From the NCBI GenBank assembly GCA_014925825.1, contig JACGCK010000006.1, positions 868,001-932,000 of the forward strand: DNA of 64,000 nucleotides, given 5' to 3'. This stretch comes from Pholiota molesta (lineage: Eukaryota > Basidiomycota > Agaricomycetes > Agaricales > Strophariaceae). Position numbers and translations under genes: made by a program. A model generated the notes under the pieces. The model saw nothing but the letters and a program-made list of their open reading frames with translations, searched no databases and was not told where the DNA came from. This document shows positions 57,764 through 64,000 of the stretch, piece by piece; position 1 is the first letter of the stretch, and the number at the start of each line of letters is the position of its first letter.

Positions 57764-58523
57764 TCACCTTTCGTAGCCTGAAAAGAGCGGCATGCGACGC
57801 TCCGTCACACAAGATGGGCCATCCATAAATGACTGAGCCATTCGCTGAGCATCACTCCTCTGCCCTACCACTCGCTCCATGTCAGAAAACAAGGAACCAT
57901 ACTGCTCCAGGACAGATGGTCTGTGGAAAGGAAGGGAGCAGCGATAGAATTCCAAGAAGAAGAAATTCAGATGCAAACTTCGGGTGAGACATTCCAATTT
58001 TATAGATCGCATCTCTTGAAAGAGAATCTCAAGAGTCGCTCCATCCTTCTCACATAAACTCAACTTTGGGAGAAGACCTTCAAGAGCAACACCGATGTCA
58101 ACTTCGACCACCGATTTGCGCAGCTGTAGAGCGTTCTTGGCGTCTGCTACTGCTGCAAAGTACTGCTCCAAGTCTTCACCGGATAGCATAGCAAGTGGGT
58201 CGTACTCCCTGGGGTTTGTATCCTGAAACGGCAGTTAAGAGAATGATTGGCGAATTCAAAAGTTAAAAAAGGTCTACCTCAAGCGGACGCAGCAGGCTGG
58301 CGGCCTCGTAGCGCAACAGCGCATCCTCTCCGAGGGCGAGAATCTCCTCTGTTAAAAGGGAGGGCGCAGATGTGCCGTCAATAACGGCGCTCCTCGCTGG
58401 TATATGAGGGGGCTCCTGGGGCTCCAAGTCGGGATGGGAAAAGTGGGAGGACTGTATGCTGCTGCAGCTCGGACAGGGCGACGAGGGGGCACTCTGCAAC
58501 GTCGGAAACAAAGAAAAGAAAGG
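57764..58523 (-). pseudogene. Uncharacterised gene, 5' end cut by the second LTR element
   Basis: Two exons join in frame: SLFPTLQSAPSSPCPSCSSI ... LLTEEILALGEDALLRYEAA ... LLRPLE (to about 58277), then DTNPREYDPLAMLSGEDLEQ, YFAAVADAKNALQLRKSVVE, VDIGVALEGLLPKLSLCEKD and EILFQEMRSIKLE, with donor GTAGAC and acceptor TTTCAG. The frame runs straight to the LTR start at 58524, so upstream exons would be on the far side of the transposon. No family recognised; the acidic, helical composition is protein-like. The 3' part (about 57764-57990) may be read-through beyond an unseen splice. Confidence 0.5.
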
Positions 58524-58789
58524 TGTCACGGGCGTGCCCCGTGACGCATCATATTATATCTTGTTTGGCATCACCCTCGGTGATGCCACTATTTAAGTAC
58601 TTGCATTTGTAATCAGACAGTAGATCTTTTGCTTGTACCACGTAGTCTACCAATTATATTGGTTCTGGCTTAGTTTGTACAGCTTAAGAACTACCCGTAA
58701 AGCGCCGCTTTACACTTTTTTAAGCCTTCCAAATAACTTGGAAAGACCCTTCCTTACCGAAGGAAAATCAAGATCTATTCTTGAACACA
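58524..58789 (+). repeat. Probable 5' LTR of the second element
   Basis: Begins TGTCACGGG and ends GAACACA just before the Gag leader. Assigned by TG...CA ends, position ahead of Gag, and interruption of the neighbouring minus-strand gene. The partner LTR is outside the window, so the boundaries are provisional. It contains a 10-bp stem with a 3-nt loop at 58566-58588 and several others. Confidence 0.5.
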
Positions 58790-58814
58790 CCCCGTGAAAA
58801 TTTCACGTAACAGA

Positions 58815-60449
58815 ATGGCAGAAGGTGACCACCTGTCAACAGGTGGGAACTCCGAGGACCCACGCACTCCAGTGCCAGCAACACCGGAGTACGTGGGTAC
58901 TACCACAACGTCGCCCAGCAGGACTCGTCCTGCAGGCACCGCATCGCAGCTCTCAGCTGTGGGCGCAGAGAGCGATCGTGGCTCTTTCCTGATGAGAGAT
59001 ATCAGGCAGCCACAACCTCGGACATCAACCGAGGGATCTGAGGCGATCGGTCAACGATCGCACGATATCGACGATGGCGTCGATCTCGCCAGACTAACGA
59101 ATGGTCTTGAAGACCAGATCGAGCTTGTATGGAATATACACAACGTCGATCGAGATGATCGACGACAAGTACTGCGAGCAATGGCGACGCAGTACGTCAT
59201 ACAAGCTATACACCACTCAGGTCAACATATACCTGAGGGATCAGAGAGATGGATATCTCTAATCATCGTGACCTTGACACGTATCGCGAAGCGATACGAA
59301 CTGATTCGAAACGACAAGAGGAGTTCAAGGGCATCCACACCAATGTCCCCCGTCTTGATCCAAACACCATCAGTGGTACCAACACTGACACATCGAGGAG
59401 GGTCAACGACCACGTCCCCTCCCACGGCATCACAAATGGTCGGAGAACCATTTACGCACTCATCCCCCACGTTGGAAATGGCAAGGGCGGGTCTCGACGA
59501 ACCACGACGATGGGACGAAACGAACGAACAGTACCAGAGACGACGCGCTGCGTCTAACCGCCTACAAGCTCGCGAGACGAGCGCGGTACCATTATATACC
59601 GCAACCAACAATGTGGGCGAAGCCCCCAACACGGATAATCGGGTAACGTACCCAAACGTTACCGTAAGAACGCCGAGGGCTATGAATTGGAAGGACAGAG
59701 TCGCCTACCAACGCCTCAGGCGAGACGACATTAATAGAACTGGTGAATCGTTAATCGATGACCAGGGCGTCGAGTTACGAGGACCAAACGCATACGACCT
59801 GGATTATCCAGGAGAATCATTAGGAAATGATGCACCGACACAGGTTAAATTCGAGGAGGTCAACGACCTCCCGGAAAGGATAATCAGTCCTGACCGACGC
59901 GACGACTATCGCGAAGAACGACGTGATAACTACCGTGAAGAACGACGCGACGATTATCGCGAAGAACGACGTGATAACTACCGCGAAGAACGACGCGACG
60001 AATATCGTGAGGAACGACGGAAGTATGGCCCACGGGACCATACCCCAAAGTCAGCAGTACGGTTCAGCCTTGAGCCAAGAGACAGCGAGGTCTTGGACCT
60101 CGGCACCGCTCCCGCAACCAATCGACATTTTAGTCGAGGATACTCAACACCGAGGTCGCTCGGACCTCGCCACGACGCCCCTGGCGTAGTTGAAGCTTCG
60201 GATCGTCACCGATCCATCATGGAGCAACGGCTCACTACACTGATTCATGAAGCTCTTAGCGTCAGGATATCTTATCCTGATGGTGTCAAATTTAATCAGA
60301 AACTTGACACCGGTGAAAAATACACCGGTTCATCCAAGTTCGCTGACTTGGAAAACTGGCTATCAGATTTAGCCTACAAGATGGCGGTGCGCCAGCTAGG
60401 AGGAAAAGAATTAGACCGCATGCGAGTAATAATACTCGGGAACACCTAG
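58815..60449 (+). CDS. gag: Gag, N-terminal part, with an 8-residue charged repeat
   Basis: First in-frame ATG is 58815 (MAEGDHLSTGGNSEDPRTPV). Low-complexity N-terminus, then a helical stretch (IELVWNIHNVDRDDRRQVLR, ERWISLIIVTLTRIAKRYEL). Five tandem copies of an eight-residue unit (consensus D-x-Y-R-E-E-R-R) lie at 59901-60020. The capsid-like part begins near HRSIMEQRLTTLIHEALSVR. The frame closes at TAG 60447-60449, but the next frame continues without loss (HLGGEAHEWYIRHV ... WTFEAVIIALYNRFIHATTM), so the break is a one-base frameshift at a GGG run near 60437. Confidence 0.85.
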   Translation: MAEGDHLSTGGNSEDPRTPVPATPEYVGTTTTSPSRTRPAGTASQLSAVGAESDRGSFLMRDIRQPQPRTSTEGSEAIGQRSHDIDDGVDLARLTNGLEDQIELVWNIHNVDRDDRRQVLRAMATQYVIQAIHHSGQHIPEGSERWISLIIVTLTRIAKRYELIRNDKRSSRASTPMSPVLIQTPSVVPTLTHRGGSTTTSPPTASQMVGEPFTHSSPTLEMARAGLDEPRRWDETNEQYQRRRAASNRLQARETSAVPLYTATNNVGEAPNTDNRVTYPNVTVRTPRAMNWKDRVAYQRLRRDDINRTGESLIDDQGVELRGPNAYDLDYPGESLGNDAPTQVKFEEVNDLPERIISPDRRDDYREERRDNYREERRDDYREERRDNYREERRDEYREERRKYGPRDHTPKSAVRFSLEPRDSEVLDLGTAPATNRHFSRGYSTPRSLGPRHDAPGVVEASDRHRSIMEQRLTTLIHEALSVRISYPDGVKFNQKLDTGEKYTGSSKFADLENWLSDLAYKMAVRQLGGKELDRMRVIILGNT

Positions 60450-61933
60450 GTGGGGAAGCCCACGAGTGGTATATTCGTCATGTACTCAGTGTTAGTCGTA
60501 CCAAACTCGGTTGGACGTTCGAAGCTGTAATAATAGCTTTATACAACCGATTTATCCATGCTACGACAATGCAGGATGCACGCGAGGGCTTCAGGAAAGC
60601 CAAGTACTCCGCATCTCGCGGAGTACAAGCATACTATGACGAACTCATTGGGTTCGCCACAAACATGGCTGCCTACCCCGATGATTTCTCATTCATCGAA
60701 GTATTCCTTGAAGGAATACCTAAGGACATGCGAACTGAGCTCCTCCGCGAGCGAGGATTATCACCTGAAGCTCACACTATGGAGGACTTCATTGCCTTCG
60801 CTATAGCACATGAATCACGAGTCAAGACAGATGATTATTACAATCGCCGAGCGAGAATACACACCGCGCCGTCGACCGCAAAGCCCAATGAGGCGACGAC
60901 CGATCGCCGTCGCCCGGGCTCGCAGAAAACACATCGACGCGCAAATCATACATCGCCAAGGGAGGATCGACCCTCTCAACCAACCGCGACGAAAACGCCG
61001 CTGAAAGATAACCCAAGCCAGGAGGCTCCACGTAACAAAACGTGGAACAGAGCCTCTGGCAGTGGCAATACCCTGACATGCTTCAACTGCGGAGGTGAAG
61101 GACACTTCTCCAAAGACTGCCCACAACCCCCAAAGAACAAGAGGGTCCATGTACGGGCAGCCCATTCCGAGGACACGCCCTCGGATAATGGAGACGCGAC
61201 AGCGAACGATGGCGACGACGCAGACAGCTGCGCGAGTGACTGCGAAGCATGTGCGGAAGACCACGATGAAGGCCAGACCTTCACCGACATTGAGGTCGAG
61301 GGTTACCAATCTGAGGGTTCCTCAGATTTCATGCGGGCGATGACTGTATCCCCTGCCGACAGAAATGAGGACCCAGTCCCCGCAACCCGCGATCGCTTAT
61401 CTGCGGTTAACGCAAGCGCCACTAAGGAGGAAATCCTTATGCGGAGGGTACGCGTGCGTACCTCGAACAATAGCCGTGTCCGACCTGTTGTACGCAACGA
61501 GGACAAAGAATGTCTCGCGACATACTTGAAGGTCGGTGGCATGGATGCATGGGTCCTCTGGGACTCAGGAAGCACCACAACTGGTATCACACCAACGTTT
61601 GCGCATGTCGCAGACATCGTGGTGGACACCCTATTAGACCCACACATCCTCCAATTAGGCACAGTCGGGAGTCGATCAATGATTAAATACGGAGCGGATG
61701 TCCTCATCGACATCTTCGGGAAAATGTCGACGATATATGTCGACATCGCTAACTTTGATCGCTACGACATGATCGTAGGCACTCCTTTTATGCGACAGCA
61801 TAAGGTCATCCTTAACTTCGTTACAAACGAAGTTATTATCGACGGTAAAGCACTGGCAGCGACGCGCGTCCAATTAAAGGACACAGATGGTCGTTTGAGG
61901 AGGTACAGAGCCTCCGAGAAAGTTAAGGAGTGA
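60450..61933 (+). CDS. gag: Gag C-terminal part with zinc knuckle and aspartic protease
   Basis: Continues Gag: MQDAREGFRKAKYSASRGVQ, FLEGIPKDMRTELLRERGLS, HTMEDFIAFAIAHESR. A CCHC zinc knuckle CFNCGGEGHFSKDC lies at about 61079-61120, followed by an acidic Asp/Ser/Cys-rich region. The aspartic protease active site is WVLWDSGSTTTGITPTFAHV near 61550-61610, with the second half MIVGTPFMRQHKVILNF near 61770. Ends KVKE-stop at 61931-61933. The RT part follows in other frames. Confidence 0.9.
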
Positions 61934-64000
61934 CTGCCTACCCCGAAAGCGACTGTGGAGGATATCGCGGACGCCGGAGATGGACTTAAAATGCCATCTC
62001 TCCCTGTCGACCACCCAAACATGTTGCTGAGTGAGGAAGAGTTCTTATCTCTTCCCAAGGGGGGGATAAGGACAGAAAAAACGATATGGGTAAGAAAACC
62101 CACAACAAAACACACAAGAAACATGCAAAACCTGTCCCAAAAAGTATGGAAATACCATACTGCCAACCTACGTCATCACGAGTCAAGGTCGAAGACCTTG
62201 TAACAGATGAGGAGGACCAAAGACGCATGGACAACCTGGCCAAAGAAATCCAGGAAGACCAAGTTCCGAAAGAACGACAGTCGTTCTGGGATAGACCGAC
62301 ACCACCACCACAATTCGAGTGGATGCCCGATCCACGAATGCCGACAGAATGGAACGCCATGGTATCAGATATGAGAACAAATGATTGGGCGAGGTTCAGA
62401 CCTCGCGGAGAGTGTTATCGAACACCAGAGGACGACGAAATATCCTCAACTCAAGAATTCACAGGGACTTGGTACCCTGATAACACGGAACGCGAACGAC
62501 TGCATGCACAATCAGTAGTCAGACTGGAGACACCAGTAGACGAATGGAGCACATCCATTCAAAAATTGCGTGCAAGATTCGATGAACCCAAACGGAAACA
62601 GCCTCCGGACAAGAAGCCGGACAGAAAAGGAAAAGGAAAAGCGACAGGCCTTTCCGAGGAAGACTATCCTCGATTACGCCAACAATGGCATGACGAGTTT
62701 CATGATATGGTACAAGGCGTCAAGGAGTTCTACCCCCCTTCAGAGAAGTAAACCATGAAATTCATCTAATTGAGGAAAACAAGCGGTACGCGTACCACAT
62801 GCCTCGATGCCCACTATCACTACGAGACGAGTTCTACGAAAAACTCAACCGATACGTGAACGCAGGATGGTGGGAAGCCAAATCGTGCGCACAGGCCGCA
62901 CCGATTATGTGCATCCCCAAGAAGGATGGACGCCTTCGTACAGTAGTCGATGCACGACTACGAAACGACAACACAGTAAAGGATGTTACGCCTCTACCCG
63001 ACCAAGACGTCATACGTGAGGACGTCGCGCGAGGAAAGATCAGATCGAAAATCGATCTGGCCGATGCATATGAACAAGTCAGGGTACGCCCTGAAGATGT
63101 ACATAAAACGGCATTTGCAACAATTGCTGGGACATACGTTAGCAACGTTATACAGCAGGGCGACTGCAATGCCCCTGCCACATTCCAGCGCCTAATGACG
63201 TCCATATTCAGGGACGCCATCGGCCGCTTCATGCACGTATATCTGGATGACATATTCATCTTCTCAGATAGTGTCGAGGAACATGAAAGACACCTCAAAT
63301 ATGTATTCGAGCGCTTACGCGCTAGTCAGCTGTTTTGAAATGGAAAAAGTGCGAATTATACGCCGAAAGAATCGATTGCCTTGGTCATATCATCGACGAC
63401 CAAGGAATACACCCTGACGCGGACAAGTTATCACGCATACGCGAATGGCGAGTACCGCGGAATTACAACGACATCCAACGATTCGTTGGGCTAGTCAACT
63501 ATGTAGGAAATTTCCTACCCAATATATCTGCCTATACCGGGCCTCTCCTCGCGATGACAATGAATGGCGCGCCATTCCACTGGAGACCACTACATCAGCG
63601 ATGTTTTGACATGATCAAACGAATATGCTGCAAGACGCCGATCATACGACCCATCGACCCGAAATCCGGTGAGCCTATATGGCTCATATGTGATGCGTCG
63701 AAAACGGGCGTTGGAGCAATGTATGGACAAGGTCCATCCTGGCAACAATGCAGACCCGCCGGATTCATGTCCAAAAAGTTCACTAGCGCCCAGCAAAACT
63801 ATGCTGTACATGAGCTCGAGACACTGGCCATACTAGAATCCCTAATAAAGTGGGAGGACAAGCTAGTAGGACACCGCCTACATGTCATCACAGACCATAA
63901 AGCTCTTGAATTCTTCAAGACACAGGTGAACTTATCCCATCGGCAACGCCGATGGACGGATTACATGTCGCGATTCGACTTTGACATCACATACATCAAA
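61934..64000 (+). CDS. pol: Pol: RT and RNase H, partial, frameshifted
   Basis: A protease-RT linker (62086-62751) is followed, after a shift at a CCCCCC run near 62735, by LPPFREVNHEIHLIEENKRY, NAGWWEAKSCAQAAPIMCIP, KKDGRLRTVVDARLRND, SKIDLADAYEQVRVRPEDVH, GDCNAPATFQRLM and the RT catalytic motif YLDDIFIFSD (near 63240). After a T-run shift near 63334 it continues KWKKCELYAERIDCLGHIID, RFVGLVNYVGNFLPNISAYT, and RNase H (WLICDASKTGVGAMYGQG, NYAVHELETLAILESL, ITDHKALEFF). The window ends in the RNase H/connection. Each frameshift is a single base in a homopolymer. Confidence 0.92.

Follow-up and report, generated by a model that had tools for sequence, protein, structure and literature searches.

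The window analysed here is a 64,000-nucleotide stretch of the Pholiota molesta genome (contig JACGCK010000006.1, positions 868,001 to 932,000), and its last part, positions 58524-64000, is the 5' part of a Ty3/Gypsy long terminal repeat (LTR) retrotransposon that is filled with short perfect hairpins. The element has 191-bp LTRs of the form TG...CA at both ends, a AAGGGGGGG polypurine tract before the 3' LTR, and an AAAGG target-site duplication on both sides, the 3' LTR ending at C555:941898 (C555 is the contig of the window, which spans C555:868001-932000). Pfam matches above cut-off run in the order zf-CCHC, RVT_1, RT_RNaseH, Integrase_H2C2 and rve, which fits gag-protease-reverse transcriptase (RT)-RNase H-integrase; RVP_2 and Retrotrans_gag matches lay below cut-off, as did a Chromo match behind the integrase (21.4 bits, cut-off 25.1). 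The window copy is 15.4 kb long including an insert of ~4.8 kb, while a second copy in the 65.6-Mb genome examined, C603, measures 10.6 kb (10,592 bases). The features at the locus are as follows, with coordinates beyond the window given in locus L009 or L010.

58519..58523, no strand: target-site duplication AAAGG, read directly; second copy at L010:6899-6903, after the 3' LTR and beyond the window
58524..58714, + strand: 5' LTR, 191 bp, TG...CA; identical sequence at L010:6708-6898
58525, 58566 and 58697: LTR hairpins with stems of 8, 10 and 8 bp and loops of 5, 3 and 1 nt
58715..58814, + strand: leader with additional stems of 6-7 bp
58815..60440, + strand: first part of gag, with 17 stems of at least 7 bp; frame disrupted near its end in the window copy
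60449..61933, + strand: continuation of gag with a zinc knuckle, then a protease-like domain and a closing UGA; stems of at least 7 bp number 8
62035..62065, + strand: hairpin GGAAGAG/CTCTTCC followed by AAGGGGGGG, a layout matching the hairpin and AAGGGGGGG that precede the 3' LTR (L010:6680-6710)
62086..64000, + strand: pol, with RT and RNase H; integrase and a weak chromodomain match follow beyond the window
58525..63955, no strand: 42 perfect stem-loops with stems of at least 7 bp and loops of 0-8 nt

The hairpin excess is genuine and pronounced, and it belongs to one lineage of elements. Positions 58524-64000 hold 42 perfect stems of at least 7 bp, 18 of them of at least 8 bp and 24 of exactly 7 bp, compared to means of 2.12 (maximum 7) and 0.41 (maximum 3) for stems of at least 7 and at least 8 bp in 100 dinucleotide shuffles. 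All 16 stems of at least 8 bp and all 17 of 7 bp listed in a preliminary description of this DNA were recovered in place, with two corrections of detail (the stem at 60701 has 9 bp and a 1-nt loop, and that at 62271 has 8 bp); its total of at least 16 longer stems held but was an undercount, and its rough chance expectation of under one stem of at least 8 bp and about three of at least 7 bp was close to the shuffle means. The rest of the window was at chance, with 2-7 stems of at least 7 bp in each of ten non-overlapping 5.5-kb tiles (1-54770). In six coding blocks totaling 6,786 bases, which run beyond the window as far as coordinate 65880 in L009, 44 stems of at least 7 bp were observed compared to 3.4 (maximum 8) in 60 synonymous codon shuffles. 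Codon swaps that also preserve dinucleotides, a check proposed in the preliminary description, mix poorly and gave 16.2 stems (maximum 26), so that the observed count was not reproduced. The stems occupy all three codon-pairing phases (17, 17 and 10), bearing out the earlier remark that more than one is used. In C603, 81 stems of at least 7 bp (loops 0-11) were found compared to 6.1 expected.

The hairpins were said to occur in the LTR, gag, protease and RT alike, and the excess is indeed common to LTR, gag, protease and pol, as well as to a third open reading frame (ORF) 3' of the integrase. Its edges are sharp: in L009 the element carries 4-10 stems per kb while the opening kilobase, outside the element, has none, and the insert is likewise free of stems in all four leading 1-kb bins of L010. 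The chromovirus elsewhere in the window and host sequence, the comparisons suggested in the preliminary description, likewise lack the excess, and a host-wide mutational cause is ruled out by these two together with the insert. Pooled over six copies (C603, C555b, C333, C154, C376 and C212), the excess for stem lengths of 4 to 11 bp was 139, 156, 150, 136, 68, 21, 14 and 4, with no stems of 12-15 bp seen in these copies. Enrichment was highest for loops of 3 nt (7.7-fold) and 5 nt (8.9-fold), lower for 4 nt (5.0-fold), and vanished beyond about 12 nt in two sequence sets. Stems of at least 6 bp have a median spacing of 64 nt, and in the larger piece of C603 (9.1 kb) hairpins with stems of at least 5 bp make up 36% of the sequence, compared to 12% in one shuffle. 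A shared loop motif was considered and rejected, the 3- and 5-nt loops being diverse (most frequent AAA 7, GAA 6 and AAC 6), and no known RNA family reached its gathering threshold in L009.

We then asked how the property is distributed among relatives. Pieces of C555b, C154, C333 and C376 contain 67, 35, 51 and 32 stems of at least 7 bp (loops 0-11) compared to 4.5-6.8 expected. For stems of at least 6 bp in the RT-RNase H region, the window copy, C555b, C154 and C333 have 14-17 (3.4-3.8 expected) and C212, C217, C256 and C21 have 16-17 (4.1-4.4 expected), while enrichment is weak in C376 (6 compared to 3.1) and C389 (5 compared to 3.4). C620, a sister subfamily, has only 2 (3.9 expected). 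Nevertheless, C620 is still partly structured, with 9 stems of at least 6 bp compared to 4.6 in a stretch of the third ORF. In our tree C620 sits within a 14-row clade that contains the hairpin-rich relatives, so that the property must either have been lost in the C620 subfamily or have been gained more than once. The counts for C57, C28 and C224 were set aside since most of the stems there come from an insert of ~0.9 kb; the groups of the tree were labeled before this was found and mark the three as hairpin-rich. The insert (L042, L045, L046) lies in the RT-RNase H region, is ACCGG-rich with inverted repeats of its own, and is perhaps a DNA transposon. Eight more distant elements have 1 to 11 stems in the same region (3.0-4.3 expected), most without excess; three have 1 stem, C616 has 3 and C334 has 4. 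Mildly raised counts were observed in three distant Gypsy elements, C152 (11 compared to 4.3), C46 (7 compared to 4.1) and C599 (7 compared to 3.4; L047, L049, L050), which perhaps carry a weaker form of the property, suggesting that it is not wholly limited to the close clade.

Silent sites provide good evidence that the stems are constrained in the closest comparison, that of the window copy with C555b, which belongs to another subfamily. Third codon positions differed at 39 of 196 sites in stems, compared to 21 of 57 in loops, 100 of 271 in 12-nt flanks and 366 of 998 elsewhere (stems versus the rest, p 1.8e-6). By region, the contrast was significant in gag (p 4e-6) and not in gag-protease (p 0.067) or pol (p 0.16) taken alone. 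Single changes struck 9.4% of stem pairs compared to 26.6% of mock pairs. Among 48 window stems of at least 7 bp, 14 were identical in C555b, 4 were changed yet perfect, 19 had one broken pair, 8 had two or more, and 3 fell at gaps. Stems do not appear to be mutational cold spots: among near-identical copies (7-8 per piece; 2 ties and all indels excluded) substitutions are no scarcer in stems than outside, although the numbers are small (7 in 1,273 stem columns and 16 in 5,609 columns outside).

Covariation is modest and limited to the same pair. Between the window copy and C555b, 13 pairs changed on both sides compared to ~2.5 expected by our own arithmetic if changes were independent at the stem rate, and 9 of the 13 retained Watson-Crick pairing. 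In the reverse direction, 7 of 11 double changes were compensated (3.4 by the mock rate). In an alignment of three sequences, of which two are ~97% alike, 7 of 165 pairs in 22 helices had changed on both sides and still paired; shuffles gave 2.4 such pairs and six slid versions gave 0-1. Aligning relatives, as the preliminary description had advised, thus upheld constraint on stems and some compensation in one pair, while individual stem positions turn over between subfamilies that retain the excess, and covariation is weak elsewhere.

The predicted folding energy of C603 differed from that of shuffled sequence by 19.0% on the sense and 13.7% on the antisense strand (ViennaRNA, 350-nt windows, 15 shuffles; 31 windows for C603). 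Sense and antisense values were 15.3 and 11.8% for C333, 10.4 and 7.0% for C376, 10.2 and 9.2% for C212, and 6.0 and 3.0% for C620, compared to -1.4 and 2.0% for C444, 1.4 and 2.0% for C275, -1.1 and 0.8% for host sequence, and 2.9 and -0.6% for the chromovirus.

Some RNA viruses are known to fold in an ordered way along the whole genome, a feature of debated purpose. The patterns seen here are probably best explained by selection on the element's single-stranded nucleic acid to form short perfect hairpins that are generic and can shift in position. Choice among silent codons would have been the main route by which the whole element came to fold as a series of short hairpins, with stems of about 4-11 bp in excess and a preference for loops of 3 and 5 nt. 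Selection would act on the folding of the single-stranded intermediate and be flexible as to position, in the manner of RNA viruses that have genome-scale ordered structure. As to function, local hairpins too short for the double-stranded-RNA machinery might prevent strands from pairing in trans, which could leave host small RNAs with little to target and keep the element compact for particle assembly; we propose this role in silencing evasion and compaction only tentatively.

Several observations weigh against selection on folding as the explanation. First, in comparisons with C154, C333 and C376 together, for which the first part of gag was left unaligned, third positions differed at 174 of 351 sites in stems and 1,324 of 2,360 elsewhere, a slight constraint that was significant in pol (p 0.0033) and absent in gag-protease (p 0.93). 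Second, for the window copy and C555b the mock rate would give 5.7 compensated pairs where 9 were seen, each of six other close directed comparisons yielded 0 or 1, and comparisons between clades gave 8, 11, 8 and 2 (7.3, 7.8, 4.2 and 4.7 by the mock rate) with no clear excess. Third, the pol of C620 has no excess (2 stems of at least 6 bp compared to 5.8), and since this subfamily has near-identical copies, pol hairpins seem dispensable for spread. Lastly, among stems with one interior mismatch and at least 7 Watson-Crick pairs, summed over five copies, A.C occurred 64 times compared to 17.5 expected, G.T 21 compared to 11.7, and other mismatches 124 compared to 55.8. With at least 8 pairs the figures were 36 compared to 5.5 for A.C and 8 compared to 3.8 for G.T; the counts depend on threshold, the contrast between A.C and G.T being smaller with at least 6 pairs. 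The absence of a G.U preference fits poorly with selection on the sense RNA alone, which should favor G.U. Selection for a folded genomic RNA, one of two causes offered in the preliminary description, thus gains from the silent-site constraint, the partial compensation and the excess in relatives, but in its simple form is weakened by the missing preference for G.U over A.C.

These mismatches raise the alternative that the strand under selection is the minus strand, either first-strand cDNA in the particle or antisense RNA, rather than the messenger, with hairpins protecting, compacting or ordering single-stranded cDNA during reverse transcription. A plus-strand A.C is a minus-strand G.T or G.U, and A.C is the best-tolerated mismatch; one-sided changes in stems of at least 7 bp tilt the same way, 50 to 28 summed over eight overlapping close directed comparisons. 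However, the tilt nearly disappears for stems of at least 6 bp (94 to 83), and neither the mismatches nor the changes are independent counts, the sequences being related. In 4 of 8 rows a sense G.U pair is present in the right-end hairpin of the LTR, and with RNA parameters the sense strand has the stronger z-scores per 120 nt (-2.01 compared to -1.70 antisense for the window copy; -0.05 and -0.12 for host sequence), while DNA-parameter scores are equal on both strands. We consider the minus-strand account rather unlikely, and the mismatch, z-score and energy data do not agree on one strand.

The other cause offered in the preliminary description was a mutational process such as short-range template switching during reverse transcription. 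On this account switching of this kind, or hairpin correction, would go on creating perfect inverted repeats that bring no benefit. Quasi-palindrome correction by template switching produces short perfect hairpins, and the stems here are perfect, small-looped, scattered over all regions and codon phases, and turning over between subfamilies; differences between lineages could stem from different reverse transcriptases. Such correction should leave one arm rewritten, yet none of 205 between-clade stem comparisons had one arm unchanged and at least 3 changes in the other, and across 84 unique stems there was no overall arm bias (left arm changed more in 28, right in 35). In six of the 84, at four places, left-arm changes outnumbered right-arm changes by at least 3, and no stem showed the reverse. 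This is a small hint of directional copying, since the left arm is the one that should be altered when one arm is copied from its partner in minus-strand synthesis; for this reason we rate the process slightly higher. A mutational source also does not predict that third codon positions evolve more slowly in stems than in loops and flanks, nor that the window copy and C555b have 14 of 45 evaluable stems in identical form, where neutral decay would by our own estimate spare only a few. Template switching as the main cause is therefore improbable and is not borne out in its clean form. An artefact of base skew, composition, codon usage or chance, for which the skewed sense strand (A 0.30, C 0.26, G 0.24, T 0.19) might speak, can be regarded as already refuted, because dinucleotide, local 60-nt and synonymous shuffles all remove the excess and non-inverted repeats in C603 are near chance (direct 11 compared to 7.7, mirror 11 compared to 6.7, complement 8 compared to 4.9).

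The hairpin-selection reading has its closest parallel in genome-scale ordered RNA structure (GORS) of viruses such as hepatitis C virus (HCV), human pegivirus (HPgV) and murine norovirus, which, in the parts of the published accounts drawn on here (PMC3950689, PMC7566573), share with the element a sequence-order-dependent folding across the genome. HCV is described there as having largely remodeled its structure while keeping elevated values (PMC7566573), which matches the turnover of stems in the element. The sense value of 19.0% exceeds both the GORS threshold of 3% and the 16.0% peak of a panel of 18 viral transcripts (PMC3950689), though our value comes from ViennaRNA and the published ones from UNAFold. 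In contrast to these viruses, the element is an LTR retrotransposon and not a positive-strand RNA virus persisting in its host, shows no sign of a G.U preference, and carries short perfect stems closed by loops of 3 and 5 nt where HPgV has large stem-loops; it works like GORS and is not classed as a member. The genomic RNAs of Ty1 and of Ty3, a Ty3/Gypsy relative, are also structured, but the account we draw on in part describes a well-folded core of ~19% of the Ty3 RNA, and no element-wide string of short perfect hairpins is apparent in that portion (PMC11381356). Maize Sireviruses with their palindrome clusters, and maize transposable elements with miRNA-like structures, offer a parallel in palindromic motifs of LTR retrotransposons that are linked to small RNAs, but the Sirevirus palindromes lie in the cis-region of the LTR according to the part of the source used (PMC10760457), whereas the hairpins here run through the coding sequence as well. 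A search of the open-access literature with few terms found no LTR retrotransposon with element-wide coding hairpins and no description of an element-wide folding adaptation of the minus strand in retroelements.

The findings caution against treating silent sites of such elements as neutral clocks. As one genome contains subfamilies of the same retrotransposon that differ greatly in hairpin density, the effects of gaining or losing the property on copy number, silencing and reverse transcription could also be compared within a single host.

Further observations concern the element itself. Several copies at 99-100% identity suggest recent activity; the near-identical copies (L030-L036) differ by many single-base indels, maybe assembly errors. 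The insert of ~4.8 kb in the window copy (L009:9745 to about L010:4440, beyond the window) is hairpin-poor and interrupts the third ORF (L009:8881-9765 and L010:4447-6616), which begins with an arginine-glycine-rich segment and has no Pfam match. Of 7,997 candidates scored against the last part of this ORF, two were database relatives, yet the ORF is present across related elements of the same genome. A link between the hairpins and the third ORF was rejected, as matches to it occur in C620 and C224 too. The best 120 of 389 matches to the RT-RNase H protein include named relatives in Hypsizygus, Leucocoprinus, Pleurotus and Armillaria, among them one from Hypsizygus marmoreus with 79% identity over 59% of the query; none outside the genome was confirmed in viral_contigs, and a 39% identical Gypsy-like locus (L053) in a contig of a Streptosporangiaceae bin, perhaps fungal contamination, was not used. 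By eye, no tRNA-like primer-binding site was recognized behind the 5' LTR (58715-58760). The UGA closing the gag-protease frame (61931-61936) is followed by CUG or CUA in aligned relatives that reach the site, and pol apparently begins at its own ATG at 62086. Between the two, the hairpin and AAGGGGGGG at 62035-62065 are retained in aligned relatives that reach the site, with one stem mismatch in C376 and C389, and this AAGGGGGGG is a possible candidate for a central polypurine tract.

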